A DNA stretch of 64,000 nucleotides from Parerythrobacter lutipelagi (GTDB lineage Bacteria > Pseudomonadota > Alphaproteobacteria > Sphingomonadales > Sphingomonadaceae), in the NCBI RefSeq assembly GCF_005434975.1, contig NZ_SKCJ01000001.1, positions 496,001 to 560,000 on the forward strand, written 5' to 3'. A program made the position numbers and the translations under genes. Below are positions 38,652 to 50,662 of this stretch, one piece after another; position 1 is the stretch's first letter; the number at the start of each line of letters is the position of its first letter. The notes beneath the pieces were generated by a model. That model made no database searches, was not told the origin of the DNA, and saw only the letters and a program-made list of their open reading frames with translations.

Positions 38652-38726
38652 GGGCGCGTAGCTCAGTGGTAGAGCACACCCTTCACACGGGTGGGGTCGC
38701 AAGTTCAATCCTTGCCGCGCCCACCA
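38652..38726 (+). tRNA. tRNA-Val(CAC)
   Basis: 75 nt: acceptor GGGCGCG pairing with CGCGCCC, D arm GCTCAGTGGTAGAGC, anticodon arm CACCC-TTCACAC-GGGTG (anticodon CAC), T arm GCAAGTTCAATCCTTGC, and an encoded CCA. The gene remains intact although it serves as the attachment site of the adjoining island. Confidence 0.97.
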
Positions 38727-38727
38727 T
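38713..38727 (+). repeat. attL-like direct repeat in the tRNA-Val 3' end
   Basis: TGCCGCGCCCACCAT at 38713-38727 covers the end of the T arm, the acceptor 3' strand, CCA and one base more. The identical 15-mer occurs at 47559-47573 in the same orientation. Direct duplication of a tRNA 3' end bracketing foreign genes is the standard footprint of tyrosine-recombinase integration. Confidence 0.8.
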
Positions 38728-39128
38728 CTTTTCAATGACTTAGAAGAGATGGAAAACATTCATGCCGCGATAGGGCGATCCGCAAGGGCGTAGGCGCCGC
38801 GGATCAGGGCCACCGCACCACAGCTTGGCCCATCACTTGCTGCTCCGACCGAGCTTTTCGAAAGAGTCGACAGTGCCTGCCAAAGTCTAAGTGCAGGCAG
38901 CGACAAGATCCACTTTGTAAGAGTTGGCCGCACTTAGTTCGGTGAAGTTGAATCCAAAATGGGGTGCTGCCGAAGGCCAAATCTTAAAAATTTCAAATAT
39001 CCGTGCTTGCCTCATCCCTGGCTACCAGCTTAAACAAGGCAAACTGGTTAGGCACAATTCCACAGAATATTATTCTGCAATAAGTTCAAGATTTTCTGAC
39101 GACGCACAATAGGAGGTTTCCTCAGTAA
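38728..39128. other. Gene-poor left end of the island
   Basis: About 400 bp without a convincing gene. It holds a 7-bp inverted repeat (TGCCTGC at 38874-38880, GCAGGCA at 38893-38899) and an AT-rich stretch from about 38980 to 39110 that probably contains the promoter of the export operon. A 62-codon frame from a non-ATG start at 38924 has no ribosome site and no recognisable protein character. The strong site TAGGAGG just before hlyD belongs to the adaptor gene. Confidence 0.5.
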
Positions 39129-40352
39129 ATGTTCCGCTCTGAGGTCTTGGAAAAATCACGCGATAGACTGTCGGGCGATGTGATCATAGCGGTTCCCCTG
39201 TCGTGGGGGGCTATCAGCTACCTTTTTCTTGCAGGGCTGTGCACAGCAATCATTTTTCTTTCCCTCGCCAACTATTCCCGGACCGAAACTGCTACCGGCG
39301 CGCTGACTCCTGATAAAGGCGTGTCAACAATTGTGCCTGCGCGCAGCGGTGTCGTGATTGAGCTTGCCGTAACTGAAGGAGAAGAAGTTCAGGCCGGTGA
39401 TTTGCTTGCCACGATCCGGACTGAAGAGGACAGTGACGGATCCGCTTCTTCGGCAGAGCAGGTCGCCCGGGCAATTGCACTTCAGGACGCAAGCCTTGCC
39501 TCGCAAATGGACGCCGCCAGCGCGGTGGCTGCAGCTCAACAAAGCCAGTTGATAGCCCAGCAAAGTGGGTACATGGCGCAGATAGACCAGATCCGCTCGC
39601 AGATTGTGCTGCAGGCGAATCTGGTGAAAACAGCCCGCGAAGACTTCGATCGGGCGCTGGAGGTGGCAGAGCGCGGGTTTATCAGTGCGCGTGACCTGCA
39701 AATCCGCGAAGAAACGTTGCTGACGCGCCAGCAGGGCCTTTCGCAGCTAAACCAGGCGCTCGCGGCACAGCGGGCAGCGCTGTCTGAATCGAAACGGTCA
39801 CTCACACAGATCGCAGCGCAAGGCCGAGTAGCGGGAGCCAATCTGGCTGCGACGCGGGCGCAAGTCGGGCAACAGGCAGCCAGCACTGCCGGGGCGCGTT
39901 CCTACGGTATTCGAGCTCCGATCGGCGGCAGAGTTACCGCCATTACTGCTCGCGCCGGACAATCGGCTGATCCGCAAAGTCCTCTCATGGCGATCATTCC
40001 TTCAGGAGCGGAGCTGCAAGCGGAGCTGGCTGTTCCCAGCTCAGCGATAGGATTTGTCAAAGAGGGTCAGGAAGTCAGTCTCGCGATTGACGCCTTCCCC
40101 TATCAGCGGTTCGGAACCGCGAAAGGTGAAGTGCTCACAGTTGCGCAAAGCGCGCTGAATCAAAAAGGCGCGAACGGTGCCGTGGTTTCATTCTATCCGG
40201 TTCGCGTGAAACTGGATGCCGAAACGATCACGGCGTTTGGCCGCAAGGAGCCGCTGGTATCAGGAATGACGCTGTCGGCCCGCATCGTCACGGAAAAGCA
40301 ATCCTTGATCGAATGGCTGTTCGAACCGCTCTACGCAGTAGGGCGGCGGTAG
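39129..40352 (+). CDS. HlyD-family periplasmic adaptor (membrane fusion protein) of a peptide exporter
   Basis: 407 residues behind TAGGAGG. A short cytosolic N terminus precedes one membrane helix (YLFLAGLCTAIIFLSLANYS), then a lipoyl half (SGVVIELAVTEGEEVQAGDL), a long Gln/Ala-rich coiled-coil hairpin of about 110-265, the second lipoyl half (YGIRAPIGGRVTAITARAGQ) and a beta-barrel domain. This is the CvaA/HlyD design that links an inner-membrane peptide ABC transporter to a TolC-type outer-membrane channel. No tolC lies nearby. The exporter gene follows after 13 bp and is surely co-transcribed. Confidence 0.92.
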   Translation: MFRSEVLEKSRDRLSGDVIIAVPLSWGAISYLFLAGLCTAIIFLSLANYSRTETATGALTPDKGVSTIVPARSGVVIELAVTEGEEVQAGDLLATIRTEEDSDGSASSAEQVARAIALQDASLASQMDAASAVAAAQQSQLIAQQSGYMAQIDQIRSQIVLQANLVKTAREDFDRALEVAERGFISARDLQIREETLLTRQQGLSQLNQALAAQRAALSESKRSLTQIAAQGRVAGANLAATRAQVGQQAASTAGARSYGIRAPIGGRVTAITARAGQSADPQSPLMAIIPSGAELQAELAVPSSAIGFVKEGQEVSLAIDAFPYQRFGTAKGEVLTVAQSALNQKGANGAVVSFYPVRVKLDAETITAFGRKEPLVSGMTLSARIVTEKQSLIEWLFEPLYAVGRR

Positions 40353-40365
40353 AGAGCTCCCAGAG

Positions 40366-42492
40366 ATGCTGGATTTGGGTTTCTTCACCGGCACTCGTGT
40401 GCGCCTCGTGCGCCAGACAGAGATCGCCGAATGCGGCCTCGCTTCGCTGGCGATGGTCGCCAATTCTCACGGGCTTGATATCGATCTAGGGTGCATGCGG
40501 CGCCGGTTTGCTCCGTCCTTGCGCGGCACTACCATGCGCTCGCTCATGGCGATCGCCGACAAGATGGGCCTTACTCCGCGAGCCGTGAAGCTGCCGCTGG
40601 AGGAGCTGCAGAACCTCCAGATGCCGTGCATTCTGCACTGGGACATGAACCATTACGTGGTTCTGGAGCGAGTAACGCGCGGGGCCAAAAGCGTTCGGGC
40701 GCTGATCCACAATCCCGACGGTCGCTCTATCAGCATGCCGCTGGAAGAGGTGTCGCAACACTTCACCGGCGTCGCGCTTGAACTTCGGCCGAGCGACAAT
40801 TTCGAAATTGGCACGCAACGTGAACGGCTCAAGCTCTCGCAGCTGTGGCGCCGTATGTCAGGGCTGAAGCGTGCTTTGGCGCAAGTTCTGGTGCTGACGA
40901 TTGTGCTGCAAGCCTATGTCCTCGCTGCACCCTATTATATGCAGGTTGCAATCGATAGTGCGTTGCCTGCGCTCGATCTGGATTTGCTCACAGTCCTCGC
41001 AATCGGATTCGGCCTCTTCATGATCCTGAATGCCGGAGCTTCGCTGCTGCGCTCTTTCGTGGTCCTGGTTGCAGGTACGACGCTCGGATTCACGCTTAGT
41101 GCAAATATAGCCCGGCGCCTGTTTCGTCTGCCCATAGACTGGTTCGAGAGACGTCATACCGGCGACATCCTTTCGCGTTTTCAGTCAACTGCTCCAATCC
41201 AGACCATGCTCACGCAAGGCACTGTCGCAGCCATCGTCGACGGCATGCTGGCGATTTTCACACTAGCGCTGATGTTCTGGTACAGTGTGCTTTTGGCGAT
41301 TATCGCGATCATCGCTTTTGCTCTTTACGGAATCGTGCGCGCCGTTTCCTACTCGTTCGAACGCGAAGCACAGGAAGCTTCGATCATCACGCGGGGGAAG
41401 GAACAGACGGCGCTGATCGAAACGCTTCGCGGGATGACTACGCTGCGCTTGTTCGGCCGGGAAACCCTGCGCCACGCCTTTTGGCAAACCAAGCTTACAG
41501 ATGCGACGAATGCAGATATTCGCAGGGCACGGATCAGCATCTGGCAAAGCACTGCCAATACGTTGATCTTCGGGTTGGAGAACATTGCGACAATATATTT
41601 CGCGATCAGTTTCGTAATCGAGGGAAGCGGCTTCAGCATCGGGATGGTGTTCGCCTACATGGCCTACAAAGGGCAATTCATTCAGAAAAGTGCTGCTCTG
41701 ATAGACAGCGCGATAGCGTTTCGAATGCTGAGTCTGCATCTCGAGCGGTTGTCGGACATTGCCTTGTCTGATGAAGACAAGAGCTTCGGCCCCAGCCTTG
41801 AGCGCCAAACCGAGCTTAAAGGCCGGATCGAACTGCGCGATGTCTTCTATCGGTATTCGCCCACCGATCCTTTGCTTCTTGATGGTTTGAATCTGAAGAT
41901 CGAACAGAACGAATTCGTAGCGATTACCGGGCCATCGGGGGGAGGGAAATCCACGCTCGTCAAGCTGATGCTGGGATTGGTCGAGCCGGAAAGCGGGGAA
42001 GTGTTGGTCGACGGCCTGCCGCTAGACCGGTTTGGGCACAAGAGTTATCATCGACAGATCGCATCCGTGCTACAGGAAGACACGCTCTTCGCAGGCCCAC
42101 TGTGTGACAATATCGCGCTTTTCGATGAAGATTTCGACATGGAACGAGTGGTTCGCGCGGCCCGCGCAGCTTCTATCCACACCGACATAGTAAACATGCC
42201 GATGCAGTATCAGACCCTTGTCGGCGACATGGGCTCGACTTTGTCTGGAGGGCAGAAGCAGCGCGTACTGCTTGCGCGTGCCTTATATCGCCAGCCCCGC
42301 ATACTGATTATGGACGAAGGGACCGCGCATCTCGATCTGAAGCATGAGAAAGCAGTCAACGAGGCGATCAAGAAGCTGGGTATCACCCGGATAATCGTTG
42401 CTCACCGCAAGGAGACTATCGATCAGGCTGAACGGATATTGCTGTTGAAAGGCGGGCAGTTCGAACCCCTGCCGGACGTTCAGAAAGAATAG
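40366..42492 (+). CDS. C39-peptidase-containing ABC exporter (PCAT) for a double-glycine peptide
   Basis: 708 residues in three parts. The N-terminal C39 peptidase has Gln17 (oxyanion), Cys23 (RQTEIAECGLASLAMVA) and His96 (HWDMNHYVVLE). Six membrane helices span about 165-450. The ATPase has Walker A GPSGGGKST, signature LSGGQKQR and Walker B ILIMDEGTAHLD (Gly where most have Ala or Pro, then Glu retained). Unlike HlyB, the active Cys is present, so it should cut after Gly-Gly while exporting. The usual third residue, Asp in a DPA box, is Asn116 here (HNPDG); Cys-His-Asn is the papain arrangement, so activity is still plausible. The expected substrate is the GG-leader peptide at 46949-47200. 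Confidence 0.93.
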   Translation: MLDLGFFTGTRVRLVRQTEIAECGLASLAMVANSHGLDIDLGCMRRRFAPSLRGTTMRSLMAIADKMGLTPRAVKLPLEELQNLQMPCILHWDMNHYVVLERVTRGAKSVRALIHNPDGRSISMPLEEVSQHFTGVALELRPSDNFEIGTQRERLKLSQLWRRMSGLKRALAQVLVLTIVLQAYVLAAPYYMQVAIDSALPALDLDLLTVLAIGFGLFMILNAGASLLRSFVVLVAGTTLGFTLSANIARRLFRLPIDWFERRHTGDILSRFQSTAPIQTMLTQGTVAAIVDGMLAIFTLALMFWYSVLLAIIAIIAFALYGIVRAVSYSFEREAQEASIITRGKEQTALIETLRGMTTLRLFGRETLRHAFWQTKLTDATNADIRRARISIWQSTANTLIFGLENIATIYFAISFVIEGSGFSIGMVFAYMAYKGQFIQKSAALIDSAIAFRMLSLHLERLSDIALSDEDKSFGPSLERQTELKGRIELRDVFYRYSPTDPLLLDGLNLKIEQNEFVAITGPSGGGKSTLVKLMLGLVEPESGEVLVDGLPLDRFGHKSYHRQIASVLQEDTLFAGPLCDNIALFDEDFDMERVVRAARAASIHTDIVNMPMQYQTLVGDMGSTLSGGQKQRVLLARALYRQPRILIMDEGTAHLDLKHEKAVNEAIKKLGITRIIVAHRKETIDQAERILLLKGGQFEPLPDVQKE

Positions 42493-42506
42493 AGTTCTTC
42501 CTGTCT

Positions 42507-43154
42507 TCAGGCGAATACGAAGTCGACCGGCTCGGTAGAGCTCCCGCACTCGAATGCTTCGTCGGCGAATTGGCCGTGGCGTTCGACCCAATGCAAGAAA
42601 ATGTGCGCCGACCATTCGTTGGGGTTGGGATATATCCGGGCATGGTTGGCCTCGATGCCCCGATACATGACGGCATCGCCAGGCTCCATAGCGAAATCCG
42701 CATAGGGCGTATCACCAAAATCGTCGGTAGGGGCAGGAACTTCAGGGGATAGTTCCTTGCTGACATGGAAGGGCCAAATTGCGTCGTCGCTGTAGCCCAA
42801 TGTCAGGGACAAGCTATGCTCGCAGGCATCGCGGTCAGAGTGGACCCGGCAGATGTCTCCTTTCCGGTAGATCCGGAAGAAACTGTAGGTCGGCTCCAAC
42901 GGAACCTTGATGAGCTTTTCCATCACCGGCGTAAGGCCCCACAGAAGAAACTTCAGTGGCGTGTAAGATGGTCCGTATACCTCGAAAGACTTGCGCTTCA
43001 GGATGACCGCGTGGCGATTGGGTTCATTGATCTTGATATCACTTGGTGCGCAATCCCTCTTTATATCATTGAGGATGGCCCGGACTACATTCTCATCCAG
43101 CAGCTGCTTGATATGCGCGTGACCCGTATCAGCGTAATCTCCGTATACTCTCAT
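42507..43154 (-). CDS. Second 2OG-Fe(II) oxygenase-like protein of the RiPP operon
   Basis: 215 residues. An HxD metal motif occurs at His105/Asp107 (RVHSDRDACEHSLSLTLGY) with a plausible distal His171 (PGDAVMYRGIEANHARIY), on a predicted double-stranded beta-helix with the typical PGDAVMY strand. The basic residue that binds 2-oxoglutarate is not obvious (no Lys/Arg 10 after His171; Arg173 or His184 are options). It starts 18 bp after the M16 stop with AGGAAC upstream and closes the minus-strand operon. I infer a second hydroxylation or oxidation of the same peptide. Its distance from the first oxygenase suggests a different site or reaction. Confidence 0.7.
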   Translation of the reverse strand: MRVYGDYADTGHAHIKQLLDENVVRAILNDIKRDCAPSDIKINEPNRHAVILKRKSFEVYGPSYTPLKFLLWGLTPVMEKLIKVPLEPTYSFFRIYRKGDICRVHSDRDACEHSLSLTLGYSDDAIWPFHVSKELSPEVPAPTDDFGDTPYADFAMEPGDAVMYRGIEANHARIYPNPNEWSAHIFLHWVERHGQFADEAFECGSSTEPVDFVFA

Positions 43155-43172
43155 TGTATCAGTTCCTGGTTG

Positions 43173-46013
43173 TCAATTAGCGAGCTGGACGGGGCGCGTA
43201 TGCGCAAGAGGACGAGCGAAGGTCTCGCGTGCCAGATCTCCGATTTCGTCGGCTGTTATGGTCTGCATCTGGGTTTCGACGCCGCGCCATATGCGGATGA
43301 TATTCGGGCGTTGTGAAAGCTCGGCAGCCTGATAGGCCCAGGCTCGGTCCTGATTGTATGATCCCGCTATGCCATTGATCATCATGGCGCGGATTGTCTC
43401 CAGAAGCTGCAGGTCAGGACCAGACTCAGCCAATTTCTTGCCAACCTCGTCGATCGCCGCTGCCACATCCGCTGCCTGCCCGCGTGGAGCCGTGACCGCT
43501 GCGGCGAGGATCGGTTGCCGATATCCGTCAACGCGTTGGACGCGCTCGACCTGCGGTGAATAGCTTGTTCCCTGTTCGACCAGGTCAATGTAGATCATGC
43601 GCGCGAACAGGGCCGTGAAAAGCTCTTGTTTTGCGCGCCCATGCGCGTCAGCGGGCTCATCCATGGCCCAAACCGCTCCTACGATTTCCTGACCTCCTGA
43701 AGCAGGCGGCAAATCGACCGTGATGACAGGCATATCGGTGTCATCAGGTGGATCAGGCGGGGTGTAATTATTCTCGTCACGGTCTTCCTGACCAAAGGTC
43801 GAGGCGAACAACGCAATGATTGAGTCTTCATCCATACTGCCGGCGATCGCAGCATCGATATGTCCCCGGGTGAGGATCGGGTGCAAAAGTGTGGAGGCGC
43901 GGGCCATCGTTCCGGCGCTGACGCACCGCTCTACCATCGCAGCGCCATCGACCTGAGTGCCGGGTGTCAGGCGGCTTTCAAGAGCCGCAACGACGGCCCT
44001 CAAAGGGTTTTTCGCTTGCTCGCGAAGGGCATCTCCGGCGCGACGGCTCGCCACTACGTCACCGGCCTCGCGAAAGCCGGGATCAGATACGAACGCGTAC
44101 AGGTTTCGCAGTGCCACAGAGGCATCCTCGGTTCGCACCGACGCGCCAGTTCGTATGCCGAACGCCGTAGCTTCGAACGGGAAATTGCGGATGTCCTTGC
44201 CCCAAAGTTCATCGCGGATCGCCCATTCCGATCGAGAACTAGTCCCTCCAGCCTGCACGAAATGGGGCAGGACCAGAGCATCGCAATGCGACAGCCTTGC
44301 GCGTGGCTCAGGCGCATTCGCATAGATGGCTATCTCAAGGTATTTGCCCTGATGCTTGCGATCGATAAGGCGCAATATGGAGCCGTTGGCAAAGGTCACG
44401 CTGCGGATCCCCTCTGCAGATCGCAGGTCTGATACGATCGCCCCGGGCGTACCACCCAATTGTCGTCGCACTGGATCGGCCTCGCTATCGCCAGATACCC
44501 CAAGCGGCCTCGGCTCATAGGCTTTGACGAACTTTGCCAGTTCGCTTGACGGGGTCGATGTCCACTGATCCGCAGCCCCTTCAACTCTTGTTTGAAACGG
44601 TGCTTGAGGCACTTGGTCGCGCCAAATTGCGTTCAATCGGTCGAGAGTCATGTCAGCCAGAATGCGACGTTGTTGCATGAAACGGTCTTGTTCGGACTGC
44701 AGTTCAAATCCTTTCGTCAGGGCCTCTCCGATGCTCGCAGAGACTCGGCTGTTGCTGTAGAACAAAGCTTGATCGGTCCGGTCGCTGATGTCCCTCAGGA
44801 TTACGCGCTTTGCGATGGCCAGCTCTCGCTCACTGAAGGCGCCCGCTTGTGCCGCTGCAACTTGATCCAAAAGGATGGAGAGCGCAGAGTGCCATTTTCC
44901 TTTTGCAGGATCCGCCTGCCAAATAAGAACGCGGCTGCTCGGGGCGGTGTCGTCAATCGTGAACTTGGCGCTGCCCACACCGGTCTCCAGCGCTTGCAGA
45001 TCAAGCCGGTGAGACAGAATCAGAGCAATAACTCTGTCGAGCATAGCGGTTTCTAGGTGTGAAGATGTCAAAGTGCCTGTTGAAAGTTTCGGCTTTTCGA
45101 GGCGAAGACTTGCAAGCACCGTCGGAGGCCCGGAAGCATCGGCATCGGCTGTATAGAGCGTGGCAACAGCGGCTGGCCTGTGACCTTTGTTGTTATCAAG
45201 ATGCATCGCAGTCGGGACATTTTGATCGGGTGGCGACCACATCCCCAGTGTCGAACGCAGGATTGCATTTGTTTCGGCTGCATCGACATCGCCAACAATC
45301 ACAATGGTCACATTTTCCGGCCGGTAAATCCGGGCGTATAGCGCCTCGATTGTCTCGACGCTGGCGGAAGCTACATCCGAAGAATCGTATCCGCGCGAGA
45401 CATCCCATTCGGAGCCGGGGGCAAGCTCGCGAGCGCGCTCGTGCAGCCTCATCGCTTGAGGCAGCCTTCCAGCCATCTCGTTGATGACAGTCTGCCGTTG
45501 CTGGTCCACAGGCTCTGCGGAAATTCGCATTCCGTCTACGATCCCGCGGAAGTATCGCAGGGCGTTGGCGATTGCGGCGACATCATTGGTCTGCGTGGTC
45601 AGAAAATACTCGCTCGCATAAGGCGATGTAAAGGCACCCCATTCACGCACTACCGTGGCCTGATCACGAAATGCGATGACTTCGTCGGGCGACATCATGC
45701 CATTCGCTTCGCGTGGTAGGTGTTCGATCAAGTGGACAAGGCCGTTCTCTCCGGGTCGTTCGGCCTGCCAGCCTCCTTTGACATGCATTCGAATGGCAAC
45801 ACGTGAAGAATCCTGACGAGCGGCGCTGCGTCGCCGGACGACGACATAGCTCAGCCCATTGGCCAGCTGCCCGGACACAACCGACTCTGAATCGACAGGC
45901 GATTCGGCATCCGAAGAGACCACATTGGTCTCGCTATGCGCTAAGAGTGAAGTGGCACCGCCAACGCCGAACAGGCCAAGGCAACCAAGCACCACAAAAG
46001 CTCTGAATATCAA
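43173..46013 (-). CDS. Periplasmic M16-family zinc metallopeptidase
   Basis: 946 residues: two fused M16 halves as in pitrilysin or PqqL. The inverzincin motif HLIEH (His94, Glu97, His98 in GLVHLIEHLPREANG) is intact, with a downstream Glu (TVINEMAGR) as the third ligand. The N terminus (IFRAFVVLGCLGLFGVGGAT) is a signal peptide, so it acts outside the cytoplasm. The start is TTG 46013 with GGAG seven bases upstream. Within the RiPP operon it could trim the exported peptide, degrade re-imported peptide as self-protection, or process a competitor. Which role cannot be decided from sequence. Confidence 0.88.
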   Translation of the reverse strand: MIFRAFVVLGCLGLFGVGGATSLLAHSETNVVSSDAESPVDSESVVSGQLANGLSYVVVRRRSAARQDSSRVAIRMHVKGGWQAERPGENGLVHLIEHLPREANGMMSPDEVIAFRDQATVVREWGAFTSPYASEYFLTTQTNDVAAIANALRYFRGIVDGMRISAEPVDQQRQTVINEMAGRLPQAMRLHERARELAPGSEWDVSRGYDSSDVASASVETIEALYARIYRPENVTIVIVGDVDAAETNAILRSTLGMWSPPDQNVPTAMHLDNNKGHRPAAVATLYTADADASGPPTVLASLRLEKPKLSTGTLTSSHLETAMLDRVIALILSHRLDLQALETGVGSAKFTIDDTAPSSRVLIWQADPAKGKWHSALSILLDQVAAAQAGAFSERELAIAKRVILRDISDRTDQALFYSNSRVSASIGEALTKGFELQSEQDRFMQQRRILADMTLDRLNAIWRDQVPQAPFQTRVEGAADQWTSTPSSELAKFVKAYEPRPLGVSGDSEADPVRRQLGGTPGAIVSDLRSAEGIRSVTFANGSILRLIDRKHQGKYLEIAIYANAPEPRARLSHCDALVLPHFVQAGGTSSRSEWAIRDELWGKDIRNFPFEATAFGIRTGASVRTEDASVALRNLYAFVSDPGFREAGDVVASRRAGDALREQAKNPLRAVVAALESRLTPGTQVDGAAMVERCVSAGTMARASTLLHPILTRGHIDAAIAGSMDEDSIIALFASTFGQEDRDENNYTPPDPPDDTDMPVITVDLPPASGGQEIVGAVWAMDEPADAHGRAKQELFTALFARMIYIDLVEQGTSYSPQVERVQRVDGYRQPILAAAVTAPRGQAADVAAAIDEVGKKLAESGPDLQLLETIRAMMINGIAGSYNQDRAWAYQAAELSQRPNIIRIWRGVETQMQTITADEIGDLARETFARPLAHTRPVQLAN

Positions 46014-46076
46014 ACCACCACTCCAGCCATTGCGACGTCGAACCGGAAAACTACCTGACGATCCGGCGATTGGAAA

Positions 46077-46778
46077 TCACGCAGCTTCCTTGCTGCCCTT
46101 GGACTTGGACTTTTCCTGCGGCGCGCGCGCCCATCGTCGTTCCCGATACCACTTGGTGATGATGGTCTTCTCTCCCTTCGCGACAGGAATTCCTTCGTGC
46201 AACGTCAACCAGTTGGGCAGGCCATCTCTGTTCATGTTGGCCCACAGAACAAGCATGCCTGCTACCGGCCTGATGCTGAACCCGGCTCGGACGAACTTTG
46301 TGTCCCCGCCCTCCATCTCGTCATCGAGATATGCCATCGCAGTCCAGACGCGCTGACCGCCTTCGCGGCGCGCAATTTTCCAGTGCGACTGACTCTCGTG
46401 CATGAAATCGCAGTGAGCCCGGAACGTCTGGCCCTCGGCATAATGCTGGCCTTGCGTCAGCTCGCCATTGATAGCCTCGATCCCCATGAGATCGGCTATG
46501 CGGGCATCTATCGCTTTTACCACCTCATCGTGCTCATCCATGTTCGAGGTTGAGCTCGTACGAAATTCCGAAATCGCCGGAAATTGATCGCCCATGGTTT
46601 TGGAACGCTCGAGCTTGCCCTTGATCAAGGCCTTCAAATATTCACGTTCGTCGGGCTTGATGAAATCTTTCACGAGGTAGATTTCGAGGCCACTGCGCCC
46701 GAATACAACCACATTTTCATGGGCCGCAATTCTTTTTTCAACTCGACGACTGATTGCAGCGCGTTCTCTAATTCCCAT
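46077..46778 (-). CDS. Prolyl 4-hydroxylase-type 2OG-Fe(II) oxygenase
   Basis: 233 residues from ATG 46778. The P4Hc signature is complete: substrate-loop SEFRTSSTSNM, iron ligands His122 and Asp124 (FRAHCDF), WTAMAYLDDEMEGGDTKF, distal His194 (WLTLHEGIPV) and the 2-oxoglutarate Lys204 ten residues later (KGEKTIITKWY). This matches collagen-type and bacterial prolyl 4-hydroxylases. Its gene follows a precursor peptide with 20 prolines, the most natural substrate in the region. The start upstream at 46841 would lie inside a stem-loop and is rejected. The Lys/Ser-rich tail (QEKSKSKGSK) is unusual. Confidence 0.88.
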   Translation of the reverse strand: MGIRERAAISRRVEKRIAAHENVVVFGRSGLEIYLVKDFIKPDEREYLKALIKGKLERSKTMGDQFPAISEFRTSSTSNMDEHDEVVKAIDARIADLMGIEAINGELTQGQHYAEGQTFRAHCDFMHESQSHWKIARREGGQRVWTAMAYLDDEMEGGDTKFVRAGFSIRPVAGMLVLWANMNRDGLPNWLTLHEGIPVAKGEKTIITKWYRERRWARAPQEKSKSKGSKEAA

Positions 46779-46838
46779 TGTGCAAGTCCTGCCGCATAAG
46801 TGCAGCCAAAGCTGCCTGGTATTTGAAAAGTGCAAAGT

Positions 46839-46888
46839 CATTCCGGCAAGGCGTGGGGTTCAAATTGCCCCATTGCCTTGCCGGAATG
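46839..46888 (-). other. Strong intercistronic stem-loop between precursor and modifying genes
   Basis: CATTCCGGCAAGGC (46839-46852) is a perfect inverted complement of GCCTTGCCGGAATG (46875-46888). An inner GTGGGG/CCCCAT stem extends it to about 20 bp around a small loop. No long T run follows on the reverse strand. Such a structure between a RiPP precursor and its enzymes commonly gives excess precursor mRNA by partial termination or by 3' end protection. Confidence 0.7.
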
Positions 46889-46948
46889 CTTCAAGGAACT
46901 TGCGACTGACAATGGGCCAAGCCCTTGGTCAGCCGACAGGCTTCCAAC

Positions 46949-47200
46949 TCAGAGATCCCTCGATGCCGGAAAAGGTCCGAACGCCGGAGAAGCCGGTATG
47001 GGCGGTTCGCCAGGATACGTCCAAGGCGGAGGTGGAGGCGGCGGCGGCGGCGGCGCGTTGGGAGGACCATAGGGGTCTCCTCCCACCACTTCGTCGAGAA
47101 CCTCGGGCGCTTCGATGCTTACGATGCCGTCAAGCTCACTTCCAGCAATATTTGCCTCAGTTACGCTCTTGGCTCCCTTTGTTGGGGATTTTCTTGCCAT
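46949..47200 (-). CDS. Double-glycine-leader, proline-rich RiPP precursor peptide
   Basis: 83 residues behind an excellent site (AGGAG, six bases before ATG). The leader, residues 1-41, is charged (MARKSPTKGAKSV...) and ends SIEAPEVLDEVVGG, a textbook Gly-Gly C39 cleavage site with Leu and Val at the expected helical positions. The core, residues 42-83, begins DPYGPPNA, has ten prolines at 50-59, then WTYPGEPPIPASP and a tail ending ASRDL. 20 of 42 core residues are Pro, with one Trp, two Tyr and two Phe, and no Cys. Leader cleavage and export by the PCAT, and Pro hydroxylation by the neighbouring P4H, are inferred. Confidence 0.85.
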   Translation of the reverse strand: MARKSPTKGAKSVTEANIAGSELDGIVSIEAPEVLDEVVGGDPYGPPNAPPPPPPPPPPWTYPGEPPIPASPAFGPFPASRDL

Positions 47201-47576
47201 TTCTACTCCTATCGCACACCGTTTTTGAGTGCTCTATAAATAACGCTTAACGGTTACATAGGAGTCAAGATCTCTAAAAGAAATTTTTTAGTTGACTACT
47301 TTGTGCTCATGCCCATCTGTCCGCTCTGCCATATAAAAAGGAGTAATCATGATGGATTTCCAGAGAAATGACTAGTGACCCCTATCCGTTTTCGAGCGAA
47401 ACTGCTGGTCGGTTTCAAGCATTTCGTCAGCGCACCGGCGTATGTGCCGCTCATTCAAGCAAGAGCAATATCACCCTTTGCTTGCGTGATAATGTCGTAC
47501 ACGGCAGAACGTGCCGCGCTTACCCTATTCGGAAGCTCGGAAGCTGATTTATCAGCCATGCCGCGCCCACCATTGC
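47201..47576. promoter_or_regulatory. AT-rich right end of the island with precursor promoter region
   Basis: No confident gene. On the reverse strand, TTGACT (47261-47266) and TATTTA about 20 bp on may form the precursor promoter, though the spacing is long. An 8-bp inverted pair, ACTCCTAT (47204-47211) and ATAGGAGT (47258-47265), brackets the leader region. On the forward strand AAAAAGGAG precedes a nine-codon frame (MMDFQRND, 47349-47375), either a leader peptide or a gene cut off at the island end. The region ends in the duplicated tRNA 3' end. Confidence 0.45.
47559..47573 (+). repeat. attR-like copy of the tRNA-Val 3' end
   Basis: TGCCGCGCCCACCAT, identical to 38713-38727 and in the same orientation, with CC-A versus CC-T immediately before it. 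It ends three bases before the tetR stop. No tRNA body precedes it, so it is a detached tRNA end. Confidence 0.8.
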
Positions 47577-48215
47577 TTAGTTTTTCGAGAGACCCTCACC
47601 AATAAGCAGGTTCGCCTGCCGGGCGATTTCGTCTGCGTCGCAGTCGCCCGAGCCCCAGATGGCGTAGCGCAGGCCAAGGAATACATTCATACCCATGATT
47701 GCCCAGGCCTGCGCCTCGTGCAGGTCTGACCGCAACTCGCCTTTGTCGGCGCCCGCTTTCAGGCGTTCGAGGATGCGTGCGGCAGTGTTTTCATAATGCG
47801 CGCGGTAACTGGCCGGGTCGACGAATTCCGCCTCGTCGATGATGCGATAGACTTCCTTGTGTTCGCTGGCGAAGCGCAGAAAAGCGGCCAGCGCCTGACG
47901 CTCCACCTCAAGCGCGCTCATGGGCTCGCGCACAGCTTCGCCGGCAGCTTGCTTCACGGCATCGCTCATATCTTTTACGAGCCCGCGAAAGATCGCGTCC
48001 TTCGAATCAAAATAGGTGTAAAATGTGCCAAGGGCGACACCGGCCCTGCGAGTGATGCCGCTGATCGAAGCTTCGTGAAACCCTTTCTCGCCGAATTCAC
48101 TGGCGGCAGCGTCCAGAAGCTTGCGCAGGGTACGGCGCCCACGCTCCGTGCGCGGAGTTTTTTCGCCAGAAGCCTGCTGCATCCCTGCCTGTTCGATCTT
48201 CGAGCCCCGTCCCAT
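47577..48215 (-). CDS. TetR-family transcriptional regulator
   Basis: About 212 residues from ATG 48215. The N-terminal TetR helix-turn-helix (EKGFHEASISGITRRAGVAL, then GTFYTYFDSKDAIF) is typical, and the C-terminal ligand domain ends in IWGSGDCDADEIARQANLLI. A second ATG at 48182 (MQQASGEK) is possible. It is divergent from the TonB receptor gene, and a perfect palindrome between them is a likely operator for both. The ligand is unknown. Confidence 0.88.
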   Translation of the reverse strand: MGRGSKIEQAGMQQASGEKTPRTERGRRTLRKLLDAAASEFGEKGFHEASISGITRRAGVALGTFYTYFDSKDAIFRGLVKDMSDAVKQAAGEAVREPMSALEVERQALAAFLRFASEHKEVYRIIDEAEFVDPASYRAHYENTAARILERLKAGADKGELRSDLHEAQAWAIMGMNVFLGLRYAIWGSGDCDADEIARQANLLIGEGLSKN

Positions 48216-48258
48216 ACCCCCTAAGTAAGCGCCAATCCCGTCCTGCACAAGATCCAAC

Positions 48259-48281
48259 TTGAAAGTCGGTTCAACTTTCAA
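48259..48281. promoter_or_regulatory. Palindromic operator between tetR and the TonB receptor gene
   Basis: TTGAAAGT-N7-ACTTTCAA is a perfect 8-bp inverted repeat with a 7-bp spacer, placed 44 bp from the tetR start and 39 bp from the receptor ATG. The geometry suits a TetR dimer. Confidence 0.65.
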
Positions 48282-48319
48282 TAACACGGCGAGCAATCAT
48301 GGATTCAGGGAGAAGAACA

Positions 48320-50662
48320 ATGGCCAGATTTGAACGCCGATTCGCCGCCAGCTTGCTCGTTGGCAGCGCCGCTCTTGCAATTACTGCTACCCCGGCGATG
48401 GCACAGGATGCTGGCGCAGACATCGCTGCCGAAAGCGGCAATTCAGATGGTCCGATCATCGTCACAGCGCGCCGCCGTGAAGAACGCATCACCGATGTAC
48501 CCCTGTCCATAACTGCCATTAACGGGCAGCAGCTTGCCAAGTCGGGCACGCTGGAATTGACGGAAATCGGCCAGAAAGTGCCCAATCTCACACTGGAGGT
48601 GAGCCGCGGCACCAACACCACTCTCACCGCCTTTATTCGCGGGGTCGGACAACAAGATCCGGTCGCCGGTTTCGAAGCCGGCGTCGGGCTGTATGTCGAC
48701 GATGTCTATCTCAATCGCCCGCAAGCCGCTGTCCTGGATATCTACGATGTCGAACGGATCGAAGTGCTGCGAGGTCCGCAGGGCACGCTTTACGGGCGCA
48801 ACACCATTGGCGGCGCGATCAAGTATGTGACCGCCCGCCTGCCCGATGCAACCACACTCAAGGTTCGCGGGACTTACGGCAGCTACGACCAGGCCGATCT
48901 GGTCGTGACGGCCTCCACACCGCTGACCGACAGCCTGCGCATCGGCGCGAGCGGCGCGCGCCTTTCGCGCGGCGGTTTCGGCGACAATTTGAACCTGCCC
49001 GGGGTAGAGAATTACAACAAGGATGTCTGGGCCGCACGCGGCACGATCGAATTCGACAACGGACCGATCTTTGTCCGTCTGTCCGGCGATTATGTGAAGG
49101 ACAATTCAGAGGCGCGGCAAGGTTCTCGCCTTATACCGGGTCTGTTCACCGGGGCTCCGGTACTCGATGACGTTTATGACACGCGGGCCGGACTCAACGT
49201 CGTTGATCAGGAAGTGGAGGCCTATGGCGGCGCGCTGCAGATCGCGCTCGATGTGTCCGATACCATCACGCTCAAGTCGATCACTGGCTACCGCGAGGAC
49301 AAGTCGACCAGCCCGATCGATTTCGACAGCCTTCCGGCTGCCGACCTCGATGTCCCGGCAATCTATGAGAACGACCAGTTCAGCCAGGAATTCCAGCTAT
49401 TGTACGACGGCGACCGCCTGAAGGGTGTCCTCGGAGTCTATTATCTTGACGCGAGCGCGTTCACCGCATTCGATGTGGCCCTGTTCACCACCGGAGCGCT
49501 GATCAATCTGCCTGGCCTGAATGCGCAGACACTGGGCGATGTCGACACGGAGACATACTCCGTCTTCGGCGATTTCACCTACGATATCACCGACCAGCTG
49601 AGCCTGTCGCTCGGCGGCCGCTACACGTGGGACAAACGGAGCAGCCGCGTGCTGCGCACCACTTTTATTGGTGGCTATTCGGACCTGTTCGCCACGGGCG
49701 CGATCCCGATTGCTGTCACATCCGATTTCGATGGCAGTGAGACCTTCGAGGAATTCACCCCGCGCGCTTCGATCAGCTTCAGGCCCGATGAGAACCACAA
49801 TATCTATTTCACCTATTCAAAGGGCTTCAAGGGCGGTGGCTTCGATCCGCGTGGGCAAACCACCGCAGCGCCCGATCTTGATGGCGATGGTGACATCGAT
49901 TTCGACGACCAGTTCCAATTCCTGCGCTTCGCGCCGGAGACAGTCGACAGCTATGAACTGGGCTGGAAAGCCTCGCTCCTCGACAACCGGCTGAACGTCG
50001 CATTCGCCATCTTCAAGGGCGATTACTCCGACATCCAGATCCCAGGTTCGGTCGGCATCGACGCGAACAATGACGGCGTGAACGAGACCTTCATCGGCAT
50101 TACCTCCAACGCCGGCTCGGCTGATGTCAACGGGTTCGAGTTCGAAGGCAATGCTCTGGTTGGCAGGGATTTCGCCGGCATGGGAAGCCGCTTTGATGTC
50201 AACTGGGCGCTCGGTTATGTCGATGCTCAATACAACCGGTTCATCGATGCTTTCGGCAATGATGTGGCAGACCAGCGGGTGTTCCAGAACACTCCTGAAT
50301 GGACGGTCAACACGGGATTTGATCTTGGCCTGCCGATTGGCAGCGGCTTCATCGACTTCCTCGGCTCAGTCTCGCTGCGTTCCGACGCAAGCCAGTTCGA
50401 AACGCCCAACGCGTTCCTCGACCAGGATGGATTTGTCCTGCTCGATGCCAGCATTGTCTACACGGCTGCCGATGATCGCTGGTCGGTCGGGGTGCATGGC
50501 AAGAACCTGACCGACGAACGGTACATCGTTTCAGGATACAACTTTGTCGCTGGCGGGACCAACGGTCAGCCTTTTGCATCTACCCTCGGCCTCGAAGGCA
50601 CGCTGACCGGTTTCTACGGCGATCCGCAGCGTTTCTTCATCACCGGCGAATTCCGCTTCTGA
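48320..50662 (+). CDS. TonB-dependent receptor
   Basis: About 780 residues from ATG 48320 with GGGAGAAG upstream. The signal peptide is SLLVGSAALAITATPAMAQ. A TonB box-like IIVTARRREERITDVP leads into a plug (FIRGVGQQDPVAGFEAGVGL, then YVDDVYLNRPQAAV and RIEVLRGPQGTLYGRNTIGG) and a long barrel ending FFITGEFRF. The sequence style is that of sphingomonad receptors for hydrophobic or lipid-like substrates. Control by the divergent TetR protein is likely. Confidence 0.93.
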   Translation: MARFERRFAASLLVGSAALAITATPAMAQDAGADIAAESGNSDGPIIVTARRREERITDVPLSITAINGQQLAKSGTLELTEIGQKVPNLTLEVSRGTNTTLTAFIRGVGQQDPVAGFEAGVGLYVDDVYLNRPQAAVLDIYDVERIEVLRGPQGTLYGRNTIGGAIKYVTARLPDATTLKVRGTYGSYDQADLVVTASTPLTDSLRIGASGARLSRGGFGDNLNLPGVENYNKDVWAARGTIEFDNGPIFVRLSGDYVKDNSEARQGSRLIPGLFTGAPVLDDVYDTRAGLNVVDQEVEAYGGALQIALDVSDTITLKSITGYREDKSTSPIDFDSLPAADLDVPAIYENDQFSQEFQLLYDGDRLKGVLGVYYLDASAFTAFDVALFTTGALINLPGLNAQTLGDVDTETYSVFGDFTYDITDQLSLSLGGRYTWDKRSSRVLRTTFIGGYSDLFATGAIPIAVTSDFDGSETFEEFTPRASISFRPDENHNIYFTYSKGFKGGGFDPRGQTTAAPDLDGDGDIDFDDQFQFLRFAPETVDSYELGWKASLLDNRLNVAFAIFKGDYSDIQIPGSVGIDANNDGVNETFIGITSNAGSADVNGFEFEGNALVGRDFAGMGSRFDVNWALGYVDAQYNRFIDAFGNDVADQRVFQNTPEWTVNTGFDLGLPIGSGFIDFLGSVSLRSDASQFETPNAFLDQDGFVLLDASIVYTAADDRWSVGVHGKNLTDERYIVSGYNFVAGGTNGQPFASTLGLEGTLTGFYGDPQRFFITGEFRF

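Follow-up and report, generated by a model that had tools for sequence, protein, structure and literature searches.

A tRNA-Val island of Parerythrobacter lutipelagi with a candidate proline-rich, C39-exported peptide and a prolyl-4-hydroxylase-family enzyme

Closest described systems and the island

Class II microcins, among them the class IIb members MccE492 and MccH47, combine a Gly-Gly (GG) leader peptide with a HlyD adaptor and a C39 ABC exporter, and the class IIb peptides have a Ser-rich tail. Prolyl-4-hydroxylase (P4H)-type enzymes occur in connection with collagen, with plant and algal cell-wall proteins and in a few bacteria. Here we describe a locus of Parerythrobacter lutipelagi in which genes of both kinds lie together, within a stretch of 64,000 nucleotides of contig NZ_SKCJ01000001.1 (positions 496,001 to 560,000; this whole stretch is called the window, and its first letter is position 1). 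The locus encodes a candidate proline-rich GG-leader peptide, a P4H-family 2-oxoglutarate (2OG) oxygenase, an M16 peptidase, a second putative oxygenase (OG2) and a C39 exporter with its adaptor. We read it, with a probability of roughly 0.6, as a C39-exported, microcin-like ribosomally synthesized and post-translationally modified peptide (RiPP) system, in which a dedicated P4H would hydroxylate prolines and the M16 peptidase would act in the periplasm.

Proline hydroxylation in RiPPs has been described for the nitrilobacillins, where the alphaKG-HExxH enzyme PesO of the pes cluster beta-hydroxylates one proline at C3, and the P450 MibO is cited as a further case in the same 2026 preprint (PMC13060819). 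Like the nitrilobacillin system, the island combines M16 peptidase and, as we infer, enzymatic proline hydroxylation; unlike it, the island has a P4H-type enzyme, which is not named in the gene list given there, and the nitrilobacillin hosts are Bacillus-related (PMC13060819). A P4H-type enzyme serving as a bacterial RiPP tailoring enzyme or acting on an oligoproline core did not come up among the matches listed in searches of open-access literature, a scope to which most subscription papers do not belong. The statement in the earlier note that no RiPP class built on a prolyl hydroxylase acting on an oligoproline core was known therefore stands for P4H-type enzymes within that scope, but does not extend to RiPP proline hydroxylation as such, of which PesO and MibO are examples.

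The 38.7-47.6 kb locus is a small horizontally acquired island at a tRNA-Val gene; it has flanking repeats and a low GC content, and two congeners lack it at the corresponding position. Its boundaries agree with those drawn in the earlier note, and all the parts named there were found at or near their expected positions, with Pfam matches for the P4H, M16, C39 and HlyD proteins.

38652-38726, plus strand: tRNA-Val (CAC) gene, integration site of the island (ARAGORN)
38710-38727: left direct repeat, att-like, equal to the tRNA-Val 3' end, 17 of 18 nt identical to 47556-47573
47556-47573: right direct repeat, att-like, 17 of 18 nt matching the left repeat

The GC content of the island is 56.2%, below that of all 150 equal-size, overlapping windows taken outside it (59.2-63.1%). 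At the same tRNA-Val site the congener G015 is almost empty, with a single ORF called (80 aa) ahead of a TetR gene, and the congener G104 carries type IV secretion genes as insert. Since TetR and TonB receptor genes come after the site in both congeners, which lack the cluster, these genes are old flank, and the TonB receptor and TetR genes at 47577-50662 were rejected as parts of the system. No integrase was seen among the genes recognised within 38727-47573. The insert in G104 (L110) includes T2SSE-family (TrbB-like) and CagE/TrbE/VirB-family genes, which makes the site an integration hotspot.

Candidate precursor, P4H-family enzyme and exporter

The island consists of two convergent gene sets whose ends are 14 nt apart. 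The plus strand carries the genes for HlyD and the C39 ABC exporter, and the minus strand carries, in transcription order, the precursor ORF and the P4H, M16 and OG2 genes.

46949-47200, minus strand: putative precursor peptide ORF, 83 aa, with GG leader, ribosome-binding site and Pro-rich core
47078-47200, minus strand: predicted leader, 41 aa, ending in LDEVVGG (L at -7, V at -4)
46952-47077, minus strand: predicted core, 42 aa, 20 Pro including ten in a row (Pro10), unmodified monoisotopic mass 4351.14 Da
46077-46778, minus strand: P4H-family 2OG oxygenase, 233 aa (PF13640; nearest solved chains are prolyl-4-hydroxylases)
43173-46013, minus strand: M16 peptidase, 946 aa, signal-like N terminus, TTG start (PF05193, and PF00675 below cut-off)
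42507-43154, minus strand: OG2, putative 2OG-Fe(II) oxygenase, 215 aa (H105xD107...H171 invariant in 18 of 18 sequences)
39129-40352, plus strand: HlyD-family periplasmic adaptor, 407 aa (PF13437, 5.4e-20)
40366-42492, plus strand: ABC exporter with N-terminal C39 peptidase, 708 aa (PF03412 at 2.1e-28, PF00664, PF00005)

The 83-aa ORF has the predicted make-up of a RiPP precursor, with a leader of net charge -3 and a core that ends in SRDL, and GGAG lies 5 nt ahead of its ATG. After Pro10, the longest Pro run among the 376 window ORFs of at least 60 aa is 3. The codons of Pro10 are mixed (CCG six times, CCT three times, CCA once), unlike those of a pure triplet repeat. The ORF has no Pfam match.

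The P4H gene directly follows this ORF. Its product belongs to the prolyl 4-hydroxylase family by its Pfam domain (PF13640 at 3.4e-13 for the longer ORF), its structural relatives and its predicted active site. It has nine PDB matches, of which eight, with E values from 6e-24 to 9e-5, are chains of the P4H type (most carry the name prolyl-4-hydroxylase) and one is a chance match (E 0.99). Nearest are chains presumably of the B. anthracis type, human C-P4H alpha-2 and chains 2jig/3gze, which we take to be algal (Chlamydomonas). All 6 aligned sequences share H122, D124, H194 and K204, which occupy the positions of the Fe and 2OG ligands. The B. anthracis, human collagen and Chlamydomonas enzymes share the sequence family and these active-site residues with the island P4H, which unlike them sits in a peptide-export island. 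The presence of the enzyme stands as first described, and its start is revised to, most likely, 46778 (Met22 of the longest ORF) because a 71%-identical protein from another locus, L004, begins there.

Judged by identity, the cluster P4H is a separate lineage: it is 71% identical to the L004 P4H and at most 47% identical over the full length to six paralogues examined. P4H homologues as such are widespread, being present in 264 of 298 family genomes, where the best-scoring non-self match is 45%; one 74-residue piece in L008 is 54% identical, and the window genome (G000) has two further homologues at 38-39%. M16, OG2 or HlyD genes were found in 0 of the six paralogue loci, and P4H homologues in other genomes were rejected as signs of more clusters. 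The plasmid search with the P4H gave distant matches only, at most 41% identical among the matches listed.

The exporter is the only C39 exporter seen in G000 in a search at 1e-20, the three other matches starting at residues 142, 175 and 209, without the C39 region. With its GG-type leader, C39 ABC exporter and HlyD adaptor, the island has the predicted outfit of a class II microcin. It differs from class IIb microcins in its P4H, OG2, M16 and oligoproline core. That a GG peptide exported by a C39 transporter has a cognate P4H, as proposed earlier, is well supported by this anatomy and by a partly conserved cluster.

In the proposed system, the GG leader would hold the precursor for the P4H, which would hydroxylate prolines of the oligoproline core in the cytoplasm, and OG2 might add a second oxidation. 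The C39 exporter would then cleave behind GG and export a 42-residue hydroxyproline rod, aided by HlyD and by a TolC-type channel whose gene lies elsewhere. The M16 peptidase would work in the periplasm, like PqqL, and most likely destroy or process peptide re-entering the cell, for self-protection or uptake; it would not act on the leader. The product would probably be a hydroxyproline peptide for which we found no described bacterial counterpart, and there is a real chance that this microcin-like, C39-exported RiPP represents a new class. If this is true, the island would be a small self-contained bacterial system making hydroxylated oligoproline peptides, would provide a bacterial P4H with a natural substrate, and would put a PqqL-like protease to a new use in a peptide system. 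We hold only tentatively, at odds well short of even, the fuller picture of "hydroxyproline microcins" as a new RiPP class, in which a P4H of the collagen/extensin type would make the oligoproline core into a rigid hydroxyproline rod; after export the rod would be taken up by rivals or by the producer itself and cut by a dedicated M16 protease of the periplasm, and in L004-type versions HlyC/MchC-like enzymes would add a further conjugate.

Role of the M16 peptidase

All 4 sequences compared retain HLIEH, the M16 zinc motif, together with the distal Glu. In a profile search the best solved match was PqqL (1.5e-26), followed by 9ldy, an M16 peptidase; after a PqqL fragment there were also matches to chains 6b03, 6brs and 6b05, named "Putative zinc protease", which we take to be FusC. 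Family and zinc motif are thus those of the PqqL/FusC type, with PqqL nearest. The N terminus is hydrophobic in both the window and the L004 proteins, as judged by a hydropathy count rather than a signal-peptide predictor. PqqL is described as periplasmic, and PqqL and FusC as sharing features that separate them from other M16 proteases (PMC6793856). The island M16 resembles these two in its best profile match, its long single chain and its signal-like N terminus; unlike import-associated M16 proteases of this type, it has no TonB receptor co-encoded in the island, the nearby receptor being old flank in both congeners.

Trimming of the peptide by M16 before export, as had been considered possible, is less likely in view of the signal-like N terminus and of the periplasmic location of the nearest solved relative. 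Self-protection or processing upon import is the most likely role. We prefer protection to leader trimming because leader removal is already the task of the C39 domain, because the M16 peptidase probably leaves the cytoplasm and diverges fastest of the three minus-strand enzymes (39% identity between the window and L004, vs 71% for P4H and 58% for OG2), and because it occurs without the rest of the cluster in the genome G543. No small immunity gene was recognised in the island, and M16 is a candidate only.

At 1e-40, M16 matches were present in 4 of 396 genomes of the order (G000, G478, G543 and, at 24% identity, G068). They were found in 1 of 318 genomes of the class sample, the window's own; the matches listed for these order and class searches show at most two scored candidates for each genome, so that misses are possible. 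In the genus of G478 the count was 1 of 121, G478 itself, with no further cluster, and the plasmid search gave distant matches only (at most 26% among the matches listed). The G543 protein (L095:8930-11962) is 53% identical; no other island gene was found in the 20 kb read around it, and no exporter match at 1e-100 in that genome. Orphan immunity genes occur without the rest of their cluster, and this stand-alone M16 gene, with neither oxygenases nor exporter within 20 kb, is possibly an orphan protection gene.

M16 could instead serve in maturation, trimming the peptide once it is exported or modified, with no protective or import role. M16 maturation proteases are part of RiPP pathways: in class III lanthipeptides a pair of them takes off the leader, and PttP1/PttP2 are M16 genes in a RiPP cluster (PMC10885120), as are PesP1/P2 in the pes cluster (PMC13060819). 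The island M16, however, is one chain of 946 aa with a signal-like N terminus and PqqL as its nearest relative, the leader would already have been removed by the C39 exporter, and in G543 the gene stands alone in 20 kb. We consider a maturation role unlikely, while giving it some weight.

Recurrence of the cluster and competing readings

A contig scan, in which five loci were confirmed, found in L004 the genes for P4H, M16 and OG2 in the same order (71, 39 and 58% identity). The exporter of the L004 genome (56%) lies elsewhere, near a radical SAM gene. In G478 (L096), M16, OG2, HlyD and C39 genes lie on one strand (36, 52, 54 and 69%). This contig stops at M16, and another one begins with a P4H piece (71-72%, residues 141-224) and an apparent M16 N terminus, from which we infer that the two contig ends adjoin. 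The earlier note would count its proposal refuted if no homologous clusters kept precursor, P4H and exporter together, and half of this applies: the three were not seen together at a second locus, and partial sets recur in L004 and G478.

Exporter matches at 1e-100 were found in 12 of 78 genomes (77 chosen genomes plus the L004 genome), six of them at 67-83%. Besides that of G478, five neighbourhoods of kin exporters were read (L129-L133). In L130, L131 and L132, kin exporters (70-74%) adjoin small ORFs with GG or GA leaders; L133 has just leader-pattern matches opposite the exporter genes, and in L129, with the closest exporter (82%), the contig starts inside HlyD, cutting off the cargo region. 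Integrase-family genes lie near the kin exporters in L129, L130 and L132. A Pro-rich GA-leader peptide beside the 72% exporter of G041 (L131:13318-13506, minus strand) has a core in which Pro residues alternate with Tyr, Phe, Ser, Leu and others. We know of no oxygenases in the Caulobacter Cdz system. A glycine-rich GA-leader ORF by the L131 exporter is similar, by eye, to Cdz, an alphaproteobacterial bacteriocin (PMC5380434). Further GG/GA-leader ORFs are present in L131, as are genes for a CHASE2 histidine kinase and, probably, a response regulator. In the L004 genome (G298), a radical SAM/SPASM gene and a 62-aa ORF adjoin the 56% C39 exporter (L134:5315-10446) and are perhaps another RiPP cluster.

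Several results weigh against the proposed hydroxylated peptide. The full gene set was seen only once, which is its weak point. No P4H was found in the 20 kb around the Pro-rich peptide of G041, and in G478 the P4H is a 3' piece lacking the HxD part while M16, OG2 and exporter are kept. Precursor and P4H genes are 170 nt apart, which bears on their co-transcription, and promoter scans of the locus stayed near chance level, as did the terminator scans. The double-stranded beta-helix fold of OG2 is only putative, its AlphaFold model having a pLDDT of 30 and hhalign giving no link to P4H. The codon-usage score of the precursor is slightly negative (-7.4), with no clear gain over three overlapping antisense ORFs (-4.3 to -27.2), so that coding is argued from the leader, the ribosome-binding site and the context. 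Homologues of the precursor were sought in plasmids, viral contigs, the L004 genome and 133 fetched loci (six own-genome loci of the island left out, composition filters off). There was no match at E 10 in the plasmids and none in the viral contigs; the L004 genome gave only a chance match (E 0.68, inside a 528-aa frame), and none was found at E 0.01 in L004, L096 or L104. The L004 contig holds just 84 nt ahead of its P4H gene. Whole-precursor matches were many in the 133 loci and look driven by Pro composition, the L131 Pro-rich peptide being matched at 2.5e-4; three leader-only matches (E 0.008-0.009) lie in loci unrelated to the cluster.

The codon score and the lack of a homologue in plasmids, viral contigs, the L004 genome and the cluster loci would fit a chance GC-rich frame in an island that makes something else. 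Such a frame would, however, have had to acquire a ribosome-binding site, a GG leader and a Pro10 run with mixed codons, next to a P4H gene and to the one C39 exporter detected in G000, which makes this explanation highly improbable.

The peptide might also be an unmodified Pro-rich, class II microcin-like bacteriocin, with P4H and OG2 acting on another target, perhaps a host protein along the lines of EF-Tu, or persisting as decaying passengers. The L131 peptide, with a kin exporter and no P4H nearby, indicates that Pro-rich cargo needs no adjoining P4H. The reduced P4H of G478, where M16, OG2, HlyD and C39 persist, and the commonness of P4H homologues, with six loci checked and free of such clusters, point the same way. 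Against this, the cluster P4H is of a distinct lineage (71% between window and L004), lies directly after the Pro10 precursor, and accompanies M16 and OG2 in two genomes and, as a 3' piece, in a third. We regard an unmodified peptide as improbable, while giving it some weight, and retain the hydroxylated peptide as the preferred reading.

OG2 has no Pfam match; a weak PhyH match was obtained for 6 of 18 sequences (best E 0.031), and the profile search against the PDB gave nothing significant. It was matched in 23 of 298 family genomes, the own genome included. Seventeen of these places (L039-L055) were fetched as larger loci, leaving out five weak or partial ones (L056-L060), and M16 or HlyD was found in 0 of 17 loci of the more distant relatives. 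One OG2-relative locus (L068) has a 42% P4H 4.5 kb away. As the relatives at 42-49% in 17 loci (L065 with just 7 kb) lie elsewhere, OG2 was rejected as a marker of the cluster. Matches in plasmids were distant only, at most 30% among the matches listed. The viral contigs yielded one OG2 relative, a partial one (39%, L139:2920-3357) beside ORFs that look, by eye, like phage portal, protease and capsid genes.

The likeness of the island to class IIb microcins extends further in L004, where OG2 is directly followed by two genes, one HlyC-like (PF02794, 7.5e-8) and one SelO/MchC-like (PF02696, below cut-off with E 0.0032). Among the matches listed, plasmid proteins annotated as MchC are 32-35% identical to the SelO/MchC-like protein across 32-42% of its length. 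In the way that MceI/MceJ attach salmochelin to Ser84 of MccE492 (PMC6071977), the two genes could serve to attach a group to the peptide, giving a siderophore-type or otherwise conjugated microcin, and would have been lost from the window copy. However, G000 has no MchC-like match, so a class IIb partner of the MceJ/MchC type is lacking there, and the core ends in SRDL without a Ser-rich tail. Conjugation thus appears unlikely for the window peptide. No MceI/HlyC-type gene was found among the island genes, to which that scan was confined within G000.

MchC-like matches were found in 3 of 298 family genomes, one of them weak. In G110 (L083:4246-11734), a GG-leader ORF, HlyD, a C39 exporter, an MchC-like gene, a weakly HlyC-like gene and a 390-aa gene without a Pfam match lie together, a stretch that resembles a class IIb microcin cluster in a sphingomonad.

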